Assembly (NCBI GenBank): GCA_017525015.1
Contig: JAFXUK010000022.1
Span: 102,682 to 166,681, forward strand
Direction of reading: 5' to 3'
Source: Bacilli bacterium
GTDB lineage: Bacteria; Bacillota; Bacilli; RF39; UBA660
Length of the DNA: 64,000 nucleotides
Shown: positions 37,305 through 46,236 of the stretch, piece by piece
How the letters are laid out: each line of letters opens with the position of its first letter
Position numbering within the stretch: position 1 is the first letter of the stretch
Position numbers and translations under genes: made by a program
Notes under the pieces: model-generated
Database searches by the model: none
The model's input: only the letters and a program-made list of their open reading frames with translations
What the model was told of the DNA's origin: nothing

Positions 37305-38657
37305 ATGTTAGAAAAAATATTTAAATTAAAAGAAAATAAGACCAATGTCTATACAGAGTTTATCGCAGGACTTACAACATTTATGGCAATGTCCTATATT
37401 ATATTTGTAAATCCAACAGTTCTATCTCAAACAGGAATGGATTATAATGCCGTTTATGGAGCAACGATTCTCGCATCAATTATAGGTACATTAATATTAT
37501 CTTTATATGCCAATGTTCCATATGCACAAAGTGCTGGTATCGGTTTAGGTAGTTTATTTACTTATACTCTCTGTGGAAGTATGGGTTATAGTTGGCAACA
37601 ATCTCTAGCTATGGTCTTTATTTGTGCCGTAATAAATTTAATAGTAACCTTAACTTCATTTAGAAAGAAAATAATTACTGCTATACCAAATGTATTACAA
37701 GAAGCAATTACAATTGGTATTGGTCTATTTATTACATATATAGGTTTAATGAATGCCGGCTTTATAGTATTTAAAGCAGATAATGTAACAAATGGATTCG
37801 CAAGTAATGTAATACCTACTATCGCAACATTTAATACACCTACAGTATTACTATCAATCTTAGGTATATTACTATTAATAATATTAGTAGTCTTAAAAGT
37901 TAAAGGCGCATATCTAATAAGTATTATATTAACAACTATCATGGGAATACCTCTAGGAGTTACACAATTACCAGACTTTTCAAATTATACAATATTCCCA
38001 TCACTTGCCCCTACTTTTATGCAATTAGATTTTGCTGGATTATTAACTGCTAAAGCATCACTAACAGTAGTATTTATGACAATATTCACTTTATGTATAT
38101 CAGATTTATTTGATACTATCGGAATATTTATTGGTACTGGAAAAAAATCAGGAATATTTAAAATATCTAATAATAACAAATTACCTAAAAAACTAGAAAG
38201 AGCATTAGTTGCTGACTCTACAGGATCTCTATTTGGATCAATGTTAGGTACAAGTAATGTTACTACATATCTAGAAAGTACTGCAGGAATTGAAGCCGGA
38301 GGAAGAACTGGTCTTACATCTCTATTTGTATCATTATTCTTCTTTCTAGCATTATTTATTTCACCATTAATTAAAATGGTACCTACTGCTGCAGTTGCTC
38401 CAGTATTAATAATGATAGGTTTAACAATGATTGAAGGAATTGGTAATATTAATTGGAAAGATATGGTAATTGCTATACCAGCATTTTTCACAATAGTATT
38501 AATGCCTTTGGCTTACTCAATCACAACAGGTATAGAAATAGGATTTATTCTATATACTTTAATTAATTATATTGCTGGTAATAAAAAAGAAGTATCACCA
38601 ATTATGGTAATACTCTCAATTCTATTTATAATTAATTTTGTATTCACAGCTCTATAG
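37305..38657 (+). CDS. NCS2/AzgA-type purine permease
   Basis: Polytopic membrane protein of 450 aa with about 13 predicted helices. The start (K-T-N-V-Y-T-E-F-I-A-G-L-T-T-F-M-A-M-S-Y-I), the D-L-F-D-T-I-G-I-F-I-G-T motif and A-D-S-T-G-S-L-F-G-S...T-T-Y-L-E-S-T-A-G identify the AzgA-like branch that carries guanine, hypoxanthine or adenine. I see no purine riboswitch in the short leader. AAGGTGG lies 5 bases before the ATG. Its last 6 bp overlap the convergent tcdA. Confidence 0.93.
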   Translation: MLEKIFKLKENKTNVYTEFIAGLTTFMAMSYIIFVNPTVLSQTGMDYNAVYGATILASIIGTLILSLYANVPYAQSAGIGLGSLFTYTLCGSMGYSWQQSLAMVFICAVINLIVTLTSFRKKIITAIPNVLQEAITIGIGLFITYIGLMNAGFIVFKADNVTNGFASNVIPTIATFNTPTVLLSILGILLLIILVVLKVKGAYLISIILTTIMGIPLGVTQLPDFSNYTIFPSLAPTFMQLDFAGLLTAKASLTVVFMTIFTLCISDLFDTIGIFIGTGKKSGIFKISNNNKLPKKLERALVADSTGSLFGSMLGTSNVTTYLESTAGIEAGGRTGLTSLFVSLFFFLALFISPLIKMVPTAAVAPVLIMIGLTMIEGIGNINWKDMVIAIPAFFTIVLMPLAYSITTGIEIGFILYTLINYIAGNKKEVSPIMVILSILFIINFVFTAL

Positions 38658-38668
38658 CTGTTTTTTTA
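38645..38668 (+). terminator. terminator of the purine permease gene
   Basis: CACAGCT, loop CTAT, AGCTGTTTTTTT on the plus strand. It lies inside the last codons of tcdA on the opposite strand. Confidence 0.75.
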
Positions 38669-39344
38669 TGAATTCACGAACTATGTAACTAGCAATTAAT
38701 AATCCTGCTGCGGGAGGTACAAATGCACTACTTCCAGGAGTTCTATCATGAGTCTTTATAGGTAATTCTTCAGAACATAGTACCATTACCTTTTTATTAA
38801 TTCTTTCATCTTTTACAAACTTTCGAATGATTCTTGCTAAAGGATCATTTTTTGTTTTTAATACATCAATTATTTCTAACTTGCTAGGATCTAATTTATT
38901 ACCAGTTCCCATACTACTAATAAAAGGTATTCCTCGTTTTATGCATTCTCTTATTACACCCTTTTTAGTAGTCATAGTGTCACATGCATCTACAAAATAA
39001 TCTATATCATTATTAAATAATAAATCTAAATTATTACTATCAATAAACTCACTAATCTTAATAACTTCACAATTAGGATTAATATCTTTAATTCTATTTT
39101 CTAAAACATCTACTTTTAGTTTTCCAATAGTAGAGTCTAAAGCAATAATTTGTCGATTAATATTAGTAATATCAATCTTATCAAAATCACAAATGATTAA
39201 TTTACCAATACCACTTCTTACAAGTGACTCGACAACATATCCTCCTACTCCACCACAGCCCAATACTAAAACTGTTTTTTTATTTAATAAAGTAAGATTT
39301 TCATTGCCAACAATTTTTTCTAATCTTGAAAATCTCTCATTCAT
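38652..39344 (-). CDS. tcdA: tRNA threonylcarbamoyladenosine dehydratase TcdA
   Basis: E1-like enzyme that cyclises t6A to ct6A at position 37 of tRNAs. The ATP-binding G-C-G-G-V-G-G-Y-V near residue 30, D-F-D-K-I-D-I-T-N-I-N-R-Q near residue 53 and the R-T-P-G-S-S-A-F-V-P-P-A-A-G-L motif near the end mark the TcdA (YgdL/CsdL) branch and not ThiF or MoeB. 230 aa is normal. It starts immediately after the unknown gene upstream, with GGGGAA as ribosome binding site. Confidence 0.93.
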   Translation of the reverse strand: MNERFSRLEKIVGNENLTLLNKKTVLVLGCGGVGGYVVESLVRSGIGKLIICDFDKIDITNINRQIIALDSTIGKLKVDVLENRIKDINPNCEVIKISEFIDSNNLDLLFNNDIDYFVDACDTMTTKKGVIRECIKRGIPFISSMGTGNKLDPSKLEIIDVLKTKNDPLARIIRKFVKDERINKKVMVLCSEELPIKTHDRTPGSSAFVPPAAGLLIASYIVREFIKKQL

Positions 39345-39346
39345 TT

Positions 39347-40150
39347 TTATTCCCCATCTTCCATTCTTTTAATATATTGTTTTTGCCTAGAATCATGTAC
39401 ATGTCTTAAAGACAATGGTCTATCATATACTATTTTACTAATATAAGAAATCTTAGTATATATATCCGCATTAGATTTAGCCATTCTATAATATTTCTTT
39501 AAATTGCGATAATCTCTTGTATTAATAGAACTCAAAGCTCTTAAAGTATCTTGTAAACTCTCTTCCGCAATAGTAGTATCAGAAAGTACTGTGCATTCAA
39601 AATGATTTAAAAAGTCTGCAGTCTCAGGTAAATCAGTAAGTCCAGCTTCTCTAAACTTTTCTCCCCATCTATCAGTATTTCTCTCTTCTTTAACTATTCT
39701 TTGTAACATACTAATTCTATCAGTATCAAGATTCTTATCAATACCTAAATCATGAAAAGAAACATATCTTCCTCTTCCAGGTTTATCAGGTATTTCACAT
39801 TGCATATCAGTAATAGTCTTACTATATAATGCATCAAGTTCATCATTTACCTTCTTAGGAGGTTGAGGTACTTTATATACATCAAAATATTTATTAGAAT
39901 CATTAAAACGAGTAGTAACTAAAAAGTTTCTAGGAAATAAAATAGACTTACTACGAATGAAGTCTATTGGGGCATTAATATCTCTAGATTGATGAAAACT
40001 TGAGTCAGAGAACTTTTCTCTATTAACAATTATTTCTCCTTCTTTTGCTTCATCTGCATAGACTCCTCTTCTAACCTTCTCCGCACCTTTTAATTTTATC
40101 TCAACATTCATAACACGTTTATTATTCACAATCGGTAATATTAACATCAT
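39347..40150 (-). CDS. soluble protein of unknown function, 267 aa
   Basis: No family recognised. Charged, mostly helical in its C-terminal half, with no signal or membrane segment and no clear catalytic motif. Start placed at ATG 40150, where GAGGTGATC gives a good ribosome binding site; a longer open frame to 40297 would run through the U-run and 3' half of the structured RNA and has no ribosome binding site. Its stop is 2 bp from the tcdA start, so the two form an operon. A link to tRNA modification is possible by context only. Confidence 0.75.
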   Translation of the reverse strand: MMLILPIVNNKRVMNVEIKLKGAEKVRRGVYADEAKEGEIIVNREKFSDSSFHQSRDINAPIDFIRSKSILFPRNFLVTTRFNDSNKYFDVYKVPQPPKKVNDELDALYSKTITDMQCEIPDKPGRGRYVSFHDLGIDKNLDTDRISMLQRIVKEERNTDRWGEKFREAGLTDLPETADFLNHFECTVLSDTTIAEESLQDTLRALSSINTRDYRNLKKYYRMAKSNADIYTKISYISKIVYDRPLSLRHVHDSRQKQYIKRMEDGE

Positions 40151-40200
40151 GATCACCTCATATAAAGCATATTTTAACATATAACCCTTTTTTAGACAAT

Positions 40201-40397
40201 AAAAAAAGTCAGAATTGAGATACGTCGTCGGCAACGATAAAACCTGTAGCGTATGTGCAGGTGGGTGTCCATACGTCATCATTAGGATCCTTAACAATGC
40301 ATTTTTTAATTAAGTATTCAACACCGATGACTTTGATCCGGACTCCCGTATCGTTATTATAGTCGGTTTTAATTGAGCCTGTTCGTATCTCTCTGAC
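40201..40397 (-). ncRNA. structured independently transcribed RNA, about 197 nt, family not identified
   Basis: The segment is clearly more GC-rich than its surroundings. Its ends pair as P1: GTCAGAGAGATAC (40397-40385) with GTATCTC-AAT-TCTGAC (40223-40208), 13 bp with one 3-nt bulge, followed directly by seven U. Inside are nested P2 (AACGATA at 40355-40349 with TATCGTT at 40239-40233), P3 (GTCATC/GATGAC at 40331-40326 and 40280-40275) and hairpin P4 (GTATG/CATAC at 40274-40270 and 40255-40251). A promoter with TATAAT places the start at the first paired base. I could not match tmRNA, RNase P, SRP or 6S RNA motifs. Size and closed ends fit a stand-alone RNA, not a riboswitch for the next gene, although it precedes that gene by about 50 nt. 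Confidence 0.8.
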
Positions 40398-40398
40398 A

Positions 40399-40433
40399 AT
40401 TATATTATATCACACTAAAATTGACCCCTACAA
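40399..40433 (-). promoter_or_regulatory. promoter of the structured RNA
   Basis: TTGTAG (40433-40428), 18-bp spacer, TATAAT (40409-40404), with a second overlapping TATAAT at 40404-40399. With the first, transcription starts at 40397, exactly the first base of the closing helix. Confidence 0.7.
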
Positions 40434-40482: not shown

Positions 40483-41226
40483 ATGCTCTTTAAACACTTA
40501 GATATCAACATCTTTTATAAAAAATATGGTAATAAAAAAAATACTATTTTAATACTCCCAGGATGGGGTAATACCTCCCCTACTTTTACAAATATAATAG
40601 AAAACTTAAAAGATTATTTCACAATTTATATTATAGATTATCCAAATTTTGGTAATAGTCCAACTCCTGCAAAATCTCTCACAATATATGACTATGCAGA
40701 AATAATAAAAGAATTTATCAAAGAAAAGAATATAGAACCAATTATTATTGCTCATTCTTTTGGAGGTAGAATTACATCTATCTTAGAAGGTAAATATAAA
40801 GTAAAAATAAAAAAGAATATTTTAATAGATGTAGCCGGTATAAAAAGAAAAAGTATTAAACAATACATTAGAACAATTATTTATAAAATATTAATGAAAA
40901 TCTCAAGTAAAAAACAAAAAGAAAAAATAAGAAATAAATTCTCATCAAATGATTATAAAGAATTAAATAATACTATGAAACAAACATTTAAAAATATTAT
41001 TAAGAAAGATTTAACAAAGTATTATAAAAAAATAAATATAGATACTCTAATTATTTGGGGAGAAAAAGATAATGATACTCCTCTAAAAGATGCGAAAAAA
41101 TTAAATAGAATAATTAAGAATTCTGGATTAATAATCTTTAAAAAAACAAATCACTACTCATATTTAGAAAAACCATATGAAACAAATTTAATAATAAAAG
41201 AATTCATAAAAAAAGATATGGATTAG
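40483..41226 (+). CDS. alpha/beta hydrolase
   Basis: 247-aa alpha/beta hydrolase fold protein. The oxyanion region L-P-G-W-G near residue 27, the nucleophile elbow A-H-S-F-G-G near residue 89, a D in W-G-E-K-D-N-D near residue 193 and H in T-N-H-Y-S-Y near residue 226 form a plausible Ser-Asp-His triad. A lysine-rich cap region lies between. Substrate unknown. AAAGGTGAT precedes the ATG. Its 3' end is convergent with and overlaps the next gene by 4 bp. Confidence 0.85.
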   Translation: MLFKHLDINIFYKKYGNKKNTILILPGWGNTSPTFTNIIENLKDYFTIYIIDYPNFGNSPTPAKSLTIYDYAEIIKEFIKEKNIEPIIIAHSFGGRITSILEGKYKVKIKKNILIDVAGIKRKSIKQYIRTIIYKILMKISSKKQKEKIRNKFSSNDYKELNNTMKQTFKNIIKKDLTKYYKKINIDTLIIWGEKDNDTPLKDAKKLNRIIKNSGLIIFKKTNHYSYLEKPYETNLIIKEFIKKDMD

Positions 41227-41245
41227 GAATCCATATCTTCTAATT
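41214..41245 (-). terminator. terminator of the 202-aa membrane protein gene
   Basis: AAGATATGGATT, loop, AATCCATATCTT with a seven-U tail on the minus strand. The 12-bp stem covers the stop codons of both convergent genes, so it probably works for both. Confidence 0.8.
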
Positions 41246-41831
41246 CTTCCATTATAAACTTACCATAAAAGTAAGCTTCACCTTTAATACTATCATCTAT
41301 CCAAAATTTTATATTTAGATAATCATCTGATTTTTCTTTAATCATTCCTGCAGTAATAATCATAGTCTCATCAGTAAATGTTTGTACTGTTTTACCATCT
41401 AAAGAATATTTAATCATATGATAATCCACTACTTTGTCTTTACAATCACACTTTTCAAACATATCCTCATCTACTGCAAATCTAATTATATAATTTACTT
41501 TATGATTAGTATTATTAGAAAAATCTAATGTCTTTTGAGGAGATCTAAGTCCCTCTTCATCACTCATAATATTATTAGAAGTAAGAGTAACAGATTGTCC
41601 ACTTAAAGAAAAACTAGATAAGTAATAGCTAGGATCATATAATACATAACTATCAACTTTTAATCCTAAGAATACAGATACAGAAATAGTTACCATAAAA
41701 ACAATCACAAGAAGAAATGTATATAGTCTCTCATGTGCTTTTATTTTAGAAATAGTATGAGATATCTCTTTACCACTATTCTTATTGATATCTTCTTCTG
41801 CTAATTTAATTTGTCTAATTTTCTTAGCCAT
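41223..41831 (-). CDS. membrane-anchored protein with beta-rich ectodomain, 202 aa
   Basis: A charged cytoplasmic tail of about 35 residues, one transmembrane segment (about 36-58), and an extracytoplasmic domain of about 140 residues with C-D-C and alternating hydrophobic pattern, including L-D-F-S-N-N-T-N-H-K-V-N-Y-I-I, which looks like the strand-rich domains of camelysin-type proteins. No family assigned. The ATG at 41831 is 6 bases after AAGGTG; a GTG three codons earlier is part of that site. It lies just behind a palindrome that may be an operator. Confidence 0.75.
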   Translation of the reverse strand: MAKKIRQIKLAEEDINKNSGKEISHTISKIKAHERLYTFLLVIVFMVTISVSVFLGLKVDSYVLYDPSYYLSSFSLSGQSVTLTSNNIMSDEEGLRSPQKTLDFSNNTNHKVNYIIRFAVDEDMFEKCDCKDKVVDYHMIKYSLDGKTVQTFTDETMIITAGMIKEKSDDYLNIKFWIDDSIKGEAYFYGKFIMEELEDMDS

Positions 41832-41847
41832 ATCAAACACCTTACTC

Positions 41848-41931: not shown

Positions 41932-43173
41932 CTATCCTAATCTAAAAGCAACATAAGCACTATATCCAGATGTGCAAAATTTAGTCTCCCCATCATAAGT
42001 ACCACTATCAAAAACAATATACATATTATTATTATATGGAGTTCTTGTTGCACCAGTTCTACGAATCAAAGCCTGATTAACACCGATTCTGATTCCCAAT
42101 GATTCAAAATAATCAAATTGTCTAGAATTATTAATAACCCCTGAATCAGTTAATGTCTCGCCAACTATTTCAACAAAATCTAACAAGAATAATTTATCAG
42201 TAGTGACAACACTTTCATTATGATCAGAATCAGAAGAAACAACATAAGTATCTAAAATGTTGTTTCTAATGATATCTGGTAACAAATTAATTACATCATT
42301 ATTTAAATATGATCTATATGGTGATACATCCCACCTATTATTACTAGCACCAAGAGCTGTACAAAAAGGAACTTGTGGATAAGCAATCTGAAACATTTCA
42401 ACAACAAATCCACAACCAGTTTGACTAAATCCTGTTTGTGAACATTCTGCTGGTGTAGATGTATTAATTATTCTTAAAGTATTATTAGAACCATCACTTA
42501 ATTTTATTGTCTTAGTATCACCAAGATGATAATCTTGAATATTACCAGATCTTATATTTAAAAGAATTGTTTCCATAGAATGTATTTGAAAAAGAGGAAC
42601 ATGATCTACCTCTATAGCATTCGAGTCCTTTTGAACATAACCTATAGAAAAAGAAAAACTTAATGACTGTGCAGAAGATGGAAGATCTTCTGGAGCAAGA
42701 TCATTATTGTATTCAATTCTAACTTTAATTGACTCAGTAACTCCGGCATTCAACTCTTGGAATTCTAATAACTCTGCTCCATCTGCATATGTAATATTAT
42801 AATTCAAATATGCTGGCAACTCTACAAGAGGATTATTATTCATTTTCGAATTAATAGATTCAATCATTGCGTCTATTGTTCCAGCATTTACCACATCAAC
42901 AGTAAATTCATAATACTCTCCAGGTTCTTTTAATCTAATATGGTAGCTTACTGTGGTTCCAATTGAATCTATAGATGGTGCTGTAGTGACCTGATCACCT
43001 GTAACTGACCCATCAGTTATTTGAACATTATCAAAATATACATTCCAGTTATTCGCATCAACATCAGTTACTCCATTAATAGAAAGTGTTGTTGTTAGAT
43101 AAGCATACCCTATTCCAAAACACATAATTAATATAGTAATTATAAATATTAGTGATTTTTTCTTTTTTCTCAT
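41932..43173 (-). CDS. SipW-type signal-peptide surface protein with DUF6273-like C-terminus (413 aa)
   Basis: N-terminal 180 residues match the other paralogues (M-R-K-K-K-K-S start, G-I-G-Y-A-Y-L-T-T-T-L, W-N-V-Y-F-D-N-V-Q, GSVTG, E-P-G-E-Y-Y-E-F-T-V-D, N-A-G-T-I-D-A-M-I, D-L-P-S-S-A-Q-S-L). The C-terminal half has L-R-I-I-N-T, W-D-V-S-P-Y-R-S-Y-L-N, L-F-L-L-D-F-V-E-I and a final Y-S-A-Y-V-A-F-R-L-G, which fits a DUF6273-like fold and differs from paralogues 1 and 2. TAGGTGAG precedes the ATG. A TATAAT at 43195-43200 is the likely -10. Confidence 0.85.
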   Translation of the reverse strand: MRKKKKSLIFIITILIMCFGIGYAYLTTTLSINGVTDVDANNWNVYFDNVQITDGSVTGDQVTTAPSIDSIGTTVSYHIRLKEPGEYYEFTVDVVNAGTIDAMIESINSKMNNNPLVELPAYLNYNITYADGAELLEFQELNAGVTESIKVRIEYNNDLAPEDLPSSAQSLSFSFSIGYVQKDSNAIEVDHVPLFQIHSMETILLNIRSGNIQDYHLGDTKTIKLSDGSNNTLRIINTSTPAECSQTGFSQTGCGFVVEMFQIAYPQVPFCTALGASNNRWDVSPYRSYLNNDVINLLPDIIRNNILDTYVVSSDSDHNESVVTTDKLFLLDFVEIVGETLTDSGVINNSRQFDYFESLGIRIGVNQALIRRTGATRTPYNNNMYIVFDSGTYDGETKFCTSGYSAYVAFRLG

Positions 43174-43516: not shown

Positions 43517-43547
43517 ATAAATTGTATTATTACAATTTATTTTTTAT
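43517..43547 (+). terminator. terminator of the toxin-like mRNA
   Basis: ATAAATTGTA, loop TTAT, TACAATTTAT then six U on the plus strand. It runs up to the stop codon of aspS on the other strand. The mRNA would be about 270 nt for a 25-codon gene. Confidence 0.75.
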
Positions 43548-44857
43548 TATGGAGCTAATCTATTAGGTCCTCTGAATAAGAATTGAGTCTCTTTAATAGA
43601 AAGTCCTGTTAGTAACATTGTAAGTCTATCTACTCCAATTGCAAATCCACCGTGTGGAGGACATCCATATTTGAAGAATTGAAGATAGAACTCAACGTCT
43701 TTTCCTAATCCTTTTTCATCTGCATTCTTCTTTAATTCTTCATATCTATGCTCTCTTTGTGCTCCTGAAGTAATCTCAGTACCTCTCCAAATTAAGTCAT
43801 ATCCTTGAAGTTTTCCATTCTCATCTCTCATATGATAGAAAGGACGTTTAGTTGCAGCATAATCAACTACAAACATAAACTCAGAATCAAATTTTTCTTT
43901 AGCAAGTTGATAAGTTAATTTTTCAGCTTCAGCATTCATATCTCCTACATCTTCTTTTGGAATATCAAATCCATATCTATCATGTAGCTCTTGATATAAA
44001 TCCATAAGTCTCATTCTAGGGAAAGGTTTCTTTGGAATAATAACTTCATTTCCAAATACTTCTTTAATTTTTTCTCCATATCTTTCCTTAACCTTAGTAA
44101 GTCCAGCAATTAATAAATCCTCTTCTAAACTCATAACATCTTCATAAGAATCAATATAAGAAAACTCTAAGTCGAAAGAAGTAAATTCTGTTGCATGTCT
44201 ATTTGTATTAGAATTTTCTGCTCTAAAACAAGGTGCAACTTCAAATATTCTATTCATTCCTGCAGCCATTGCCATTTGTTTATAGAATTGTGGGCTTTGA
44301 GCTAAATATGCAGCACGATCAAAATATTTAACTTCAAATACACTACTTCCAGATTCACTAGCAGCTCCAATTAATTTTGGAGTATGAATCTCAGTAAATC
44401 TATTTTCATATAAGAACTCTCTCATAGCTTCAACAAAACAAGATTCAACTTGTCTAACAAGCATATTCTTCTCATTTCTTAAGTCTATCCAACGATAGTC
44501 CATTCTAGTATCAATATTAACACCTTCAAGATTATTAAAATCAAAAGGTAAATTTTCTGCTAAACTAGTAACTTCAATATTAGTTGGAATAATTTCCATT
44601 CCACCTAATTTAACAGCTTCATTTGCTTGTAGAAGTCCTGTTACTTTAACAGTTGATTCTACTGTTGTATTAGCCATAATTTCTAATAAAGGTTGATTCT
44701 TTTCTTCACTCTTTTCAAGAGTCATTTGTACTTTACCAGTATTATCTCTAAGTACAACAAACATAACCCATTTTAAATTACGTATTTCATCTACAAATCC
44801 AGAAAAAGAAATCTCTTCTCCTAAATGTTCTTTTAATTCATCTACATGTATTTTCAT
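43547..44857 (-). CDS. aspS: aspartyl-tRNA synthetase, archaeal-type (AspRS2)
   Basis: Class IIb synthetase of 436 aa. It has the N-terminal OB-fold anticodon domain (S-F-S-G-F-V-D-E-I-R-N-L), motif 2 F-R-A-E-N-S-N-T-N-R-H-A-T-E-F and motif 3 G-F-A-I-G-V-D-R-L, plus G-T-E-I-T-S-G-A-Q-R-E-H-R typical of AspRS and not AsnRS. The bacterial-type enzyme is about 590 aa with a GAD insertion; that insertion is absent, so this is the short archaeal type that occurs in some Firmicutes. Such enzymes may charge both tRNA-Asp and tRNA-Asn. It follows hisS by 2 bp. Confidence 0.9.
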   Translation of the reverse strand: MKIHVDELKEHLGEEISFSGFVDEIRNLKWVMFVVLRDNTGKVQMTLEKSEEKNQPLLEIMANTTVESTVKVTGLLQANEAVKLGGMEIIPTNIEVTSLAENLPFDFNNLEGVNIDTRMDYRWIDLRNEKNMLVRQVESCFVEAMREFLYENRFTEIHTPKLIGAASESGSSVFEVKYFDRAAYLAQSPQFYKQMAMAAGMNRIFEVAPCFRAENSNTNRHATEFTSFDLEFSYIDSYEDVMSLEEDLLIAGLTKVKERYGEKIKEVFGNEVIIPKKPFPRMRLMDLYQELHDRYGFDIPKEDVGDMNAEAEKLTYQLAKEKFDSEFMFVVDYAATKRPFYHMRDENGKLQGYDLIWRGTEITSGAQREHRYEELKKNADEKGLGKDVEFYLQFFKYGCPPHGGFAIGVDRLTMLLTGLSIKETQFLFRGPNRLAP

Positions 44858-44859
44858 AA

Positions 44860-46236
44860 TTACTCCTCCTCATGATGATGTCCACAGCCACATTCTCCAT
44901 GTCCACCACAACATTTATGTCCTTCTTCATGATTATCACATTCACACTCATCATCTAATTCTTCAAAATCTCTTAATTTTTCATCTAAATAATAGATTAA
45001 AGCATCAAGTGAAATAACCTCTTCTTCTTTAGTAATATTATTCTTAATATGAACTTCATTATTATTTAAATCTTCACTATTTAAGATACAAATAAATTTA
45101 GCATTTAATCTATCTGCTTGCTTAAATTGTGCTTTTAAACTTCTACCAGTATATTCAGTCTCAACAATGAAATCATTCATTCTTAATTCTTGTGCTAAGT
45201 ATGCAGCATATTTCTTCTCATCTTCATTAACATACATTAAGAATAAATCTACATCTTCAATAATTGGAAGTTTAACTTTTTCAAGTTCAATTGCCATTGC
45301 AAGTCTACCAATACCAGTTGCAAAACCTACACATGGAGTTTCAGGTCCATCTAATTGATTAACTAATCCATTATAACGACCTCCACCACCTAATACATTA
45401 TTTGCTCCAAAGCCTTCAACTTTAGCTTCAATTTCAAATACTGTGTGGTTATAGTAATCAAGTCCTCTAACAATATTAGGATCAATTACATATTCTATTT
45501 GCATAACATCAAGTAAATCTTGTACAGCTTCAAATCTGTCTCTACTTGCTTCATTTAAATAATCTAATGTCTTTGGTGCATTCACAATAATTTCATTTCC
45601 TGCATCAAATTTACAATCTAAGATTCTTAAAGGATTCTTCTCTAATCTTTCTTGACAATCCTCACATAAATCTTTAATTTTTGGTCTAAAGTATTCAACT
45701 AAAGCTTTACGATAATTATCTCTAGATTCACTATCTCCTAAACTATTAATATTAACTTTAATTTCTTTTAATCCTAATGCTTTATAAAGATTAACTGCTG
45801 CACTGATGATTTCTGCATCTGCAAGTGGATCATCACTACCTAATATTTCCATACCAAATTGAGTTAATTCTCTATCTCTTCCAGATTGAGGTCTCTCATA
45901 ACGATACATTGTACCATTATAATAAACCTTTACTGGTTGATTAGGATCTCCATACATTTTATTTTCAATATATGCACGAACAACTCCAGCAGTACCTTCA
46001 GGTCTAAGTGTAATATTTCTTCCACCTTTATCTACAAAATCATAACTCTCTTTAGTAACAATATCAGTTGTTTCTCCTACGCCTCGATGGAATAATTCAG
46101 TAGCCTCAAAAATTGGTGTACGAATATAGTTATAGTTATACTTTTCCATTAATGCATCAACTACATGATCAATGTACTTCCAAACTTTTGCGTTCCTTCC
46201 GAAAATATCATTACATCCTTTTTGTCTTTGTATCAT
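44860..46236 (-). CDS. hisS: histidyl-tRNA synthetase with Cys/His-rich C-terminal tail
   Basis: Class IIa synthetase. Motif 1 region, motif 2 Y-R-Y-E-R-P-Q-S-G-R-D-R-E-L-T-Q-F, the histidine loops G-L-D-Y-Y-N-H-T-V-F-E and G-G-G-R-Y-N-G-L-V, and the C-terminal anticodon-binding domain are complete by about residue 420. The last 38 residues are an added tail with alternating Cys, His, Asp and Glu (C-E-C-D-N-H, K-C-C-G-G-H, C-G-C-G-H-H-H), which looks metal-binding. AAGGAGGAG precedes the ATG. First gene after a T-box leader. Confidence 0.95.
   Translation of the reverse strand: MIQRQKGCNDIFGRNAKVWKYIDHVVDALMEKYNYNYIRTPIFEATELFHRGVGETTDIVTKESYDFVDKGGRNITLRPEGTAGVVRAYIENKMYGDPNQPVKVYYNGTMYRYERPQSGRDRELTQFGMEILGSDDPLADAEIISAAVNLYKALGLKEIKVNINSLGDSESRDNYRKALVEYFRPKIKDLCEDCQERLEKNPLRILDCKFDAGNEIIVNAPKTLDYLNEASRDRFEAVQDLLDVMQIEYVIDPNIVRGLDYYNHTVFEIEAKVEGFGANNVLGGGGRYNGLVNQLDGPETPCVGFATGIGRLAMAIELEKVKLPIIEDVDLFLMYVNEDEKKYAAYLAQELRMNDFIVETEYTGRSLKAQFKQADRLNAKFICILNSEDLNNNEVHIKNNITKEEEVISLDALIYYLDEKLRDFEELDDECECDNHEEGHKCCGGHGECGCGHHHEEE

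Follow-up and report, generated by a model that had tools for sequence, protein, structure and literature searches.

A divergent 6S RNA, probably orthologous to Bacillus subtilis 6S-1, in a gut-type Bacilli bacterium

Introduction

A locus on the minus strand of a 64,000-nt stretch of genomic DNA from a Bacilli bacterium, the whole of which is referred to here as the window, raises the question of what kind of RNA it encodes. A sequence-only reading had described a stand-alone structured RNA gene and had left the RNA unidentified, and 6S RNA was rejected because the fold was judged to be branched and unlike a rod. 6S RNA, found in a wide range of bacteria, resembles an open promoter and restrains RNA polymerase. 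The computational analysis reported here leads us to conclude, with high confidence, that the RNA is a divergent 6S RNA of a gut-type Bacilli bacterium and, from its genomic position, probably orthologous to the 6S-1 RNA (bsrA) of Bacillus subtilis, and that sequence drift, which has taken it below the database cut-off, accounts for its unfamiliar look. An apparent orphan RNA would thereby be reassigned to a known global regulator, and 6S RNA would be seen to persist, as a single detected copy at the 6S-1 place, in a small-genome, uncultured, gut-type Bacilli bacterium, where a search at the Rfam cut-off misses it.

Results

A free-standing RNA gene

The putative 6S RNA gene (ssrS/bsrA type), defined by the RF00013 match, the conserved family and the covariance model R1 described below, occupies positions 40201..40397 on the minus strand and consists of a structure of ~190 nt and a U7 tail. 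Two overlapping TATAAT hexamers (40409-40404 and 40404-40399, minus strand) are situated just 5′ of the first base, G1 at 40397, with TATAAT at −12 relative to the RNA start and a TG one base 5′ of the first hexamer, as in an extended −10 element. The −35 element is weak (TTGTAG, 40428..40433, minus strand, three of six matches). The closing stem P1, seen in both the minimum free energy (MFE) fold and the alignment, pairs a 5′ strand at 40384..40397 with a 3′ strand at 40208..40224 (minus strand) that contains a 3-nt bulge. It joins the first and last bases of the RNA, as the sequence-only reading had said, and its length in the MFE fold is 14 bp rather than the 13 counted there. A U-run (T7, 40201..40207, minus strand), terminator-like together with P1, forms the 3′ end of the RNA.

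Conservation of these features was examined in alignment A1, which contains the 30 BLASTN loci retrieved with their sequence, that of the window included, and leaves out matches listed without a locus. In all 30 oriented loci a −10 element with five or six of six matches lies directly 5′ of the RNA and a T6 run is found at its 3′ end, while a −35 element with at least four of six matches is present in only 15. The predicted folding energy of the 197-nt strand is −53.3 kcal/mol, compared with −38.6 ± 4.0 kcal/mol for shuffled sequences (z = −3.65; 0/200 shuffles as stable). On re-reading the window sequence, the TATAAT, the start at the first paired base, the closing stem and the U-run were found as described, and since the fold is also unusually stable and conserved, the earlier observation of a structured, independent RNA gene that has a promoter of its own and is closed at both ends holds. 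A free-standing RNA gene running from 40397 to 40201, with a conserved sigma-A-type −10 element and a terminator-like end, is therefore supported at the level of sequence and conservation.

Assignment to the 6S RNA family

An Rfam search, which the sequence-only reading had proposed, gave no match at the gathering score in the whole window. A search of 400 bases in E-value mode aligned RF00013 over its full length (1-187 of 187) at 40203-40401, with CACCCACCUG and the GGG:CCC stem included; the E-value of 4.3e-05 holds for 400 bases and scales to ~0.007 for 64 kb by our own arithmetic, and the score of 32.7 bits is below the RF00013 gathering score of 46.4, which is a curation threshold and not a biological trait of the 6S family. 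The six other matches in these 400 bases (E 1.2 to 9.7), to three snoRNA families, a miRNA family, algC and Pseudomonas P1, were taken as chance. A raiA-type RNA, which had been entertained as a candidate, gave no match up to E 10 in the same 400 bases, and the absence of a tmRNA noted earlier agrees with ARAGORN and Rfam, both of which were without a match.

By itself the RF00013 match is a lead, and it is the family-level, reciprocal and synteny tests that make the identity firm. A BLASTN search of 59 genomes, including that of the window (1.45 Mb, 98.4% complete, 7.2% contaminated), gave a match in 34 of the 36 members of the genus (G000-G035). Neither BLASTN nor RF00013 found one in G010 (84% complete) or G034 (71%), and the one match in G021 is to a second, diverged copy. 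The sole match beyond the genus, 21 bases in G057, was discounted. When the same 59 genomes were searched with RF00013, 45 gave matches with E no higher than 1, and in 27 a match exceeded the cut-off; 13 places that score over 46.4 bits, the best at 70.7, are BLASTN-orthologous places of the window RNA (G003:C6, G004:C10, G007:C6, G008:C10, G009:C7, G011:C29, G016:C3, G017:C55, G020:C1, G023:C33, G028:C20, G032:C50 and G033:C25). These orthologues exceed the cut-off that the window copy falls short of, and on this family-level sequence evidence the RNA belongs to RF00013; calling it unidentified is not supported. Over the window's own genome RF00013 gave no match in this search or, in a separate one, even at E up to 10, which is taken as loss in the first look or in the filters, as R1 finds the locus.

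R1 is a covariance model built from A1 alone, that is, from the window RNA and 29 relatives with no outside 6S RNA, and its E-values are rough. In its own genome it scores 189.4 bits at the locus, the one 6S place that it finds there (150 of 569 first-look candidates scored). On a 5-kb stretch of Escherichia coli K-12 the annotated ssrS ranks first at 25.7 bits (E = 5e-05, the next match being at 0.41), and the match spans 2488-2671 compared with 2484-2666 for the annotated gene. Other families of the class account for 16 of the listed RF00013 places, four of them without a locus, and R1 matches all 12 in the loci given to it, two of them partially. When R1 was run on 149 genomes of the class with an E threshold of 0.01, 68 gave a match and 81 did not; at this threshold R1's strict filters miss G039 and G040, both of which have RF00013 matches, and G040 is matched once its locus is given. 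A model from 30 sequences could help to re-annotate such genomes.

Gene neighborhood

In B. subtilis, bsrA, the gene for 6S-1, is flanked by aspS and yrvM (PMC11077062). The corresponding upstream markers in the window, hisS (44860-46236) and aspS (43547-44857), were identified with Pfam, and the downstream marker (38652..39344) is a ThiF-family gene (PF00899) for which a tcdA/yrvM-like name is inferred from family and synteny. All are on the minus strand, as is the RNA, in the order hisS-aspS-…-6S-…-ThiF gene, and the same order is seen in relatives. The place between aspS and a ThiF/yrvM-type gene is that of B. subtilis 6S-1, with the difference that protein genes intervene in the window between aspS and the RNA, and one precedes the ThiF gene. 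In lactic acid bacteria, by contrast, the usual flanks of 6S RNA are rarA and uspA, according to the extract of PMC8414754.

The synteny sample comprised 80 loci fetched through AspS relatives, in 16 of which R1 matched the plus strand with E-values of at most 5.4e-07. Six weaker minus-strand matches (E 0.013-0.46) were set aside as the antisense shadow of six of the 16. In all 16 loci the RNA is downstream of aspS on the same strand; proximity to aspS is built into such a search, while side and strand are independent of it. A relative of the ThiF gene follows the RNA in 14 of the 16 and was not found in L123 or L132. The remaining 64 loci had no R1 match in the available flank, and many of them end at contig ends. 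Rfam at the gathering score, run on eight of the 16, confirmed 6S RNA in five (L083, L095, L109, L120 and L123) and did not confirm the R1 place in L061, L085 or L121.

Several protein genes of this neighborhood were also noted. A 413-aa protein with a DUF6273 match and, by eye, a signal-like N-terminus is encoded between aspS and the 6S gene (41932-43173, minus strand), followed by a 205-aa protein without a Pfam match (41223-41840). Directly 3′ of the 6S gene is a gene for a ~267-aa protein (39347-40150, minus strand), also with no Pfam match, relatives of which are found downstream of the RNA in nine of the 16 aspS-linked loci, two of them at only 34-36% identity.

Rod and branched folds

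The branched fold of the sequence-only reading, including its P2 helix (AAAACC:GGUUUU), is indeed the MFE fold of the window RNA, but a rod is only 1.2 kcal/mol away, at −52.1 kcal/mol, and appears when the 13 bases of the predicted template are held unpaired. Across the family the P2 helix does not prevail: it is part of the free MFE fold in six of the 30 loci, compared with 22 for the rod helix AACGAUA:UAUCGUU and two for neither (L005 and L024). The two halves of the rod helix are at 40349..40355 (AACGAUA, minus strand), which RNAalifold pairs with 40239-40233, and at 40233..40239 (UAUCGUU, minus strand), a pairing that recurs in the blocked-template fold and in A1.

A search of relatives for compensatory changes had likewise been proposed; homologues were found, double changes are present, and these favor the rod. 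RNAalifold on A1 returns the rod, with double changes in 15 of 41 pairs. When both structures were scored on A1, the rod had 91.9% of cells paired and 20/52 pairs changed on both sides (0/500 shuffles reach either value), and the branched fold 87.9% (0/500) and 17/51 (2/500), counts in which the cells are not independent events, both structures are derived from the window's sequence, and shared stems carry much of the support for either fold. The folds separate where they differ. The rod stem above the bulge (columns 55-63 with 138-146) is 96.7% paired with double changes in four of eight pairs, whereas the two helices that replace it in the branched fold are 84.0% and 76.7% paired with double changes in 0/5 and 1/7. 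The central helices do not discriminate between the folds, with 99.0% of cells paired in the template helix (AAAACC:GGUUUU) versus 96.7% in AACGAUA:UAUCGUU and a double change in neither, and the count of further pair types is unremarkable (51/500 shuffles reach the rod, 106/500 the branched fold). The compensatory changes in the alignment thus favor a 6S-type rod over the branched fold, contrary to the earlier judgement that the RNA does not resemble rod-shaped 6S RNA.

The canonical 6S RNA layout, as the extract of PMC8414754 describes it for B. subtilis 6S-1 and lactic acid bacteria, is this same rod, and its features (closing stem, 5′ central bulge, 3′-bulge hairpin and apical stem) are present, with compensatory changes in the structure. 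The 3′-central-bulge hairpin, ACCUG...CAGGU at 40242..40262 (minus strand), has 98.7% of cells paired and no double change; a hairpin that faces the 5′ central bulge has been described for B. subtilis 6S-1 and for lactic acid bacteria 6S RNA in the same extract (PMC8414754). The latter RNAs are also similar in being monocistronic with a terminator and in having pRNAs with GG at 4/5 or 5/6 (PMC8414754).

Predicted pRNA template and proposed mechanism

The predicted pRNA template is in the 5′ central bulge at 40362..40374 (minus strand), where ACCG[A/C]C, within AAAACCG[A/C]C, is found in 30/30 loci. The pRNA predicted from it, on the plus strand, is GUCGGUUUUAAUU from 40362, or alternatively would start from the A at 40361, and has GG at positions 4/5. 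The same position has been described for pRNAs of lactic acid bacteria and of bacteria outside that group (extract of PMC8414754). In B. subtilis 6S-1, the pRNA of which begins GUUCGGUC, a CCGA-type template likewise specifies a pRNA with GG near its start; the two pRNAs differ in sequence (GUCGGUUUUAAUU vs. GUUCGGUCAAAACU), and the comparison with B. subtilis was made by locus and pRNA.

As published, 6S RNA works as an open-promoter mimic, its rod capturing the housekeeping holoenzyme, which is freed once a short pRNA has been made on the rod (PMC4227106, PMC12005410). By analogy, the expected function of the window RNA would be to sequester σA-RNA polymerase until pRNA synthesis, with both binding and expression inferred. 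The rod with its central bulge would imitate an open promoter, bind the sigma-A holoenzyme and titrate the enzyme from DNA promoters. Upon a rise in NTPs, the polymerase would start a short pRNA at C36 (5′-GUCGGUUUUAAUU) or at U37, the predicted starts being GUCGGUUUU or AGUCGGUUUU. As the pRNA lengthens, it would cover AAUUAAAACCGAC, set GGUUUU free and allow AACGAUA to close on UAUCGUU, collapsing the central bulge and releasing the polymerase.

A collapse of the central bulge through AACGAUA:UAUCGUU is plausible. A pRNA-induced collapse helix in the central bulge has been proposed for Aquifex aeolicus 6S RNA (extract of PMC4227106), the difference being that in the window this helix competes with AAAACC:GGUUUU within ~1 kcal/mol. 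In silico, blocking of the template leads AACGAUA to pair with UAUCGUU in 29/30 loci; the helix itself hardly varies, and it is broken in two of the three second copies (see below) for which R1 alignments were printed. Cofolding of the RNA with pRNAs of 8-14 nt gave no binding, and a 20-mer pRNA was bound with the closing stem broken; the program used is unable to model a partner bound within an internal loop. A further step would be to see the two helices as a nearly isoenergetic two-state switch, in which the template is either paired with GGUUUU or freed by AACGAUA closing on UAUCGUU. We regard this as a tentative and rather doubtful idea; across the 30 loci the two helices show almost no variation. 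If it were true, access to the template and escape of the polymerase could depend on RNA folding in addition to NTP supply.

Alternative explanations

Could the locus encode a new, unrelated structured RNA family that resembles 6S RNA only in its closed rod shape? Its score below the Rfam cut-off and the branched appearance of its MFE fold would suit such a family, but orthologous places exceed the RF00013 cut-off, the compensatory changes favor the rod, the gene has the synteny of 6S-1, and a model that had seen no outside 6S RNA matches both E. coli ssrS and the 6S places of other families, all of which make this explanation very improbable. Even less credible is a cis-regulatory, riboswitch-like leader of the gene for the 267-aa protein. 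The RNA is on the same strand ~50 nt upstream of that open reading frame, yet it has a conserved U-run end, after which new −10-like elements follow in most of the 30 loci (in the window a separate extended −10 for the protein gene, TGTTAAAAT, at 40171..40179 on the minus strand), and in seven of the 16 aspS-linked loci (L068, L095, L109, L120, L121, L123 and L132) the RNA is present and a relative of the open reading frame was not found.

A more subtle alternative accepts the relationship to 6S RNA and supposes a changed function, such as binding of core polymerase in the manner of Ms1, or the loss of pRNA templating. Function cannot be read off sequence, and Ms1, which is structurally related to 6S RNA, binds the core enzyme according to the extract of PMC9130861. 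The window RNA and its relatives nevertheless keep a pRNA template with GG at 4/5 in 30/30 loci as well as the 6S-1 locus, and a change of this kind is considered highly unlikely. A 6S RNA of the 6S-1 type is hence the preferred reading of the locus.

Second copies and tandem arrays

At least 11 genomes of the genus carry a second, diverged 6S RNA with 61-69% identity to that of the window (loci L143-L153, in G005, G009, G015, G016, G020, G021, G022, G025, G029, G032 and G035). None of the 11 stretches around these copies yielded a relative of aspS, and in one (L151) the template is changed. In the two relatives read (L145 and L150), the second copy is located between what we take, from their translations, to be ssb and gdpP, in an rpsF-ssb-…-gdpP-rplI-dnaB cluster. 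The rpsR-gdpP gap of the window's own genome, which adjoins the site of the second copy in these relatives, is 105 bases long and has no match better than E 0.096.

Two tandem 6S copies have been published for the B. cereus group (extract of PMC7726162), and a narrow search of the literature found no 6S arrays longer than two. In two further families (f8 and f11) of the class, R1 detected tandem arrays with copy numbers of six, four, four, three and three. The six-copy array is at L174 5948-7384 (G106:C113) and has six copies over the RF00013 cut-off, the four-copy arrays are at L175 4841-6419 (G082) and L176 4846-5759 (G097), with four and zero over the cut-off, and the three-copy arrays are at L177 5225-6003 (G088) and L178 3300-3894 (G066), with three and two. 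From a reading of translations, the six-gene array is presumably placed between aspS-like and rarA-like genes, and its copies are 75-95% identical and have the template CCGAA in common.
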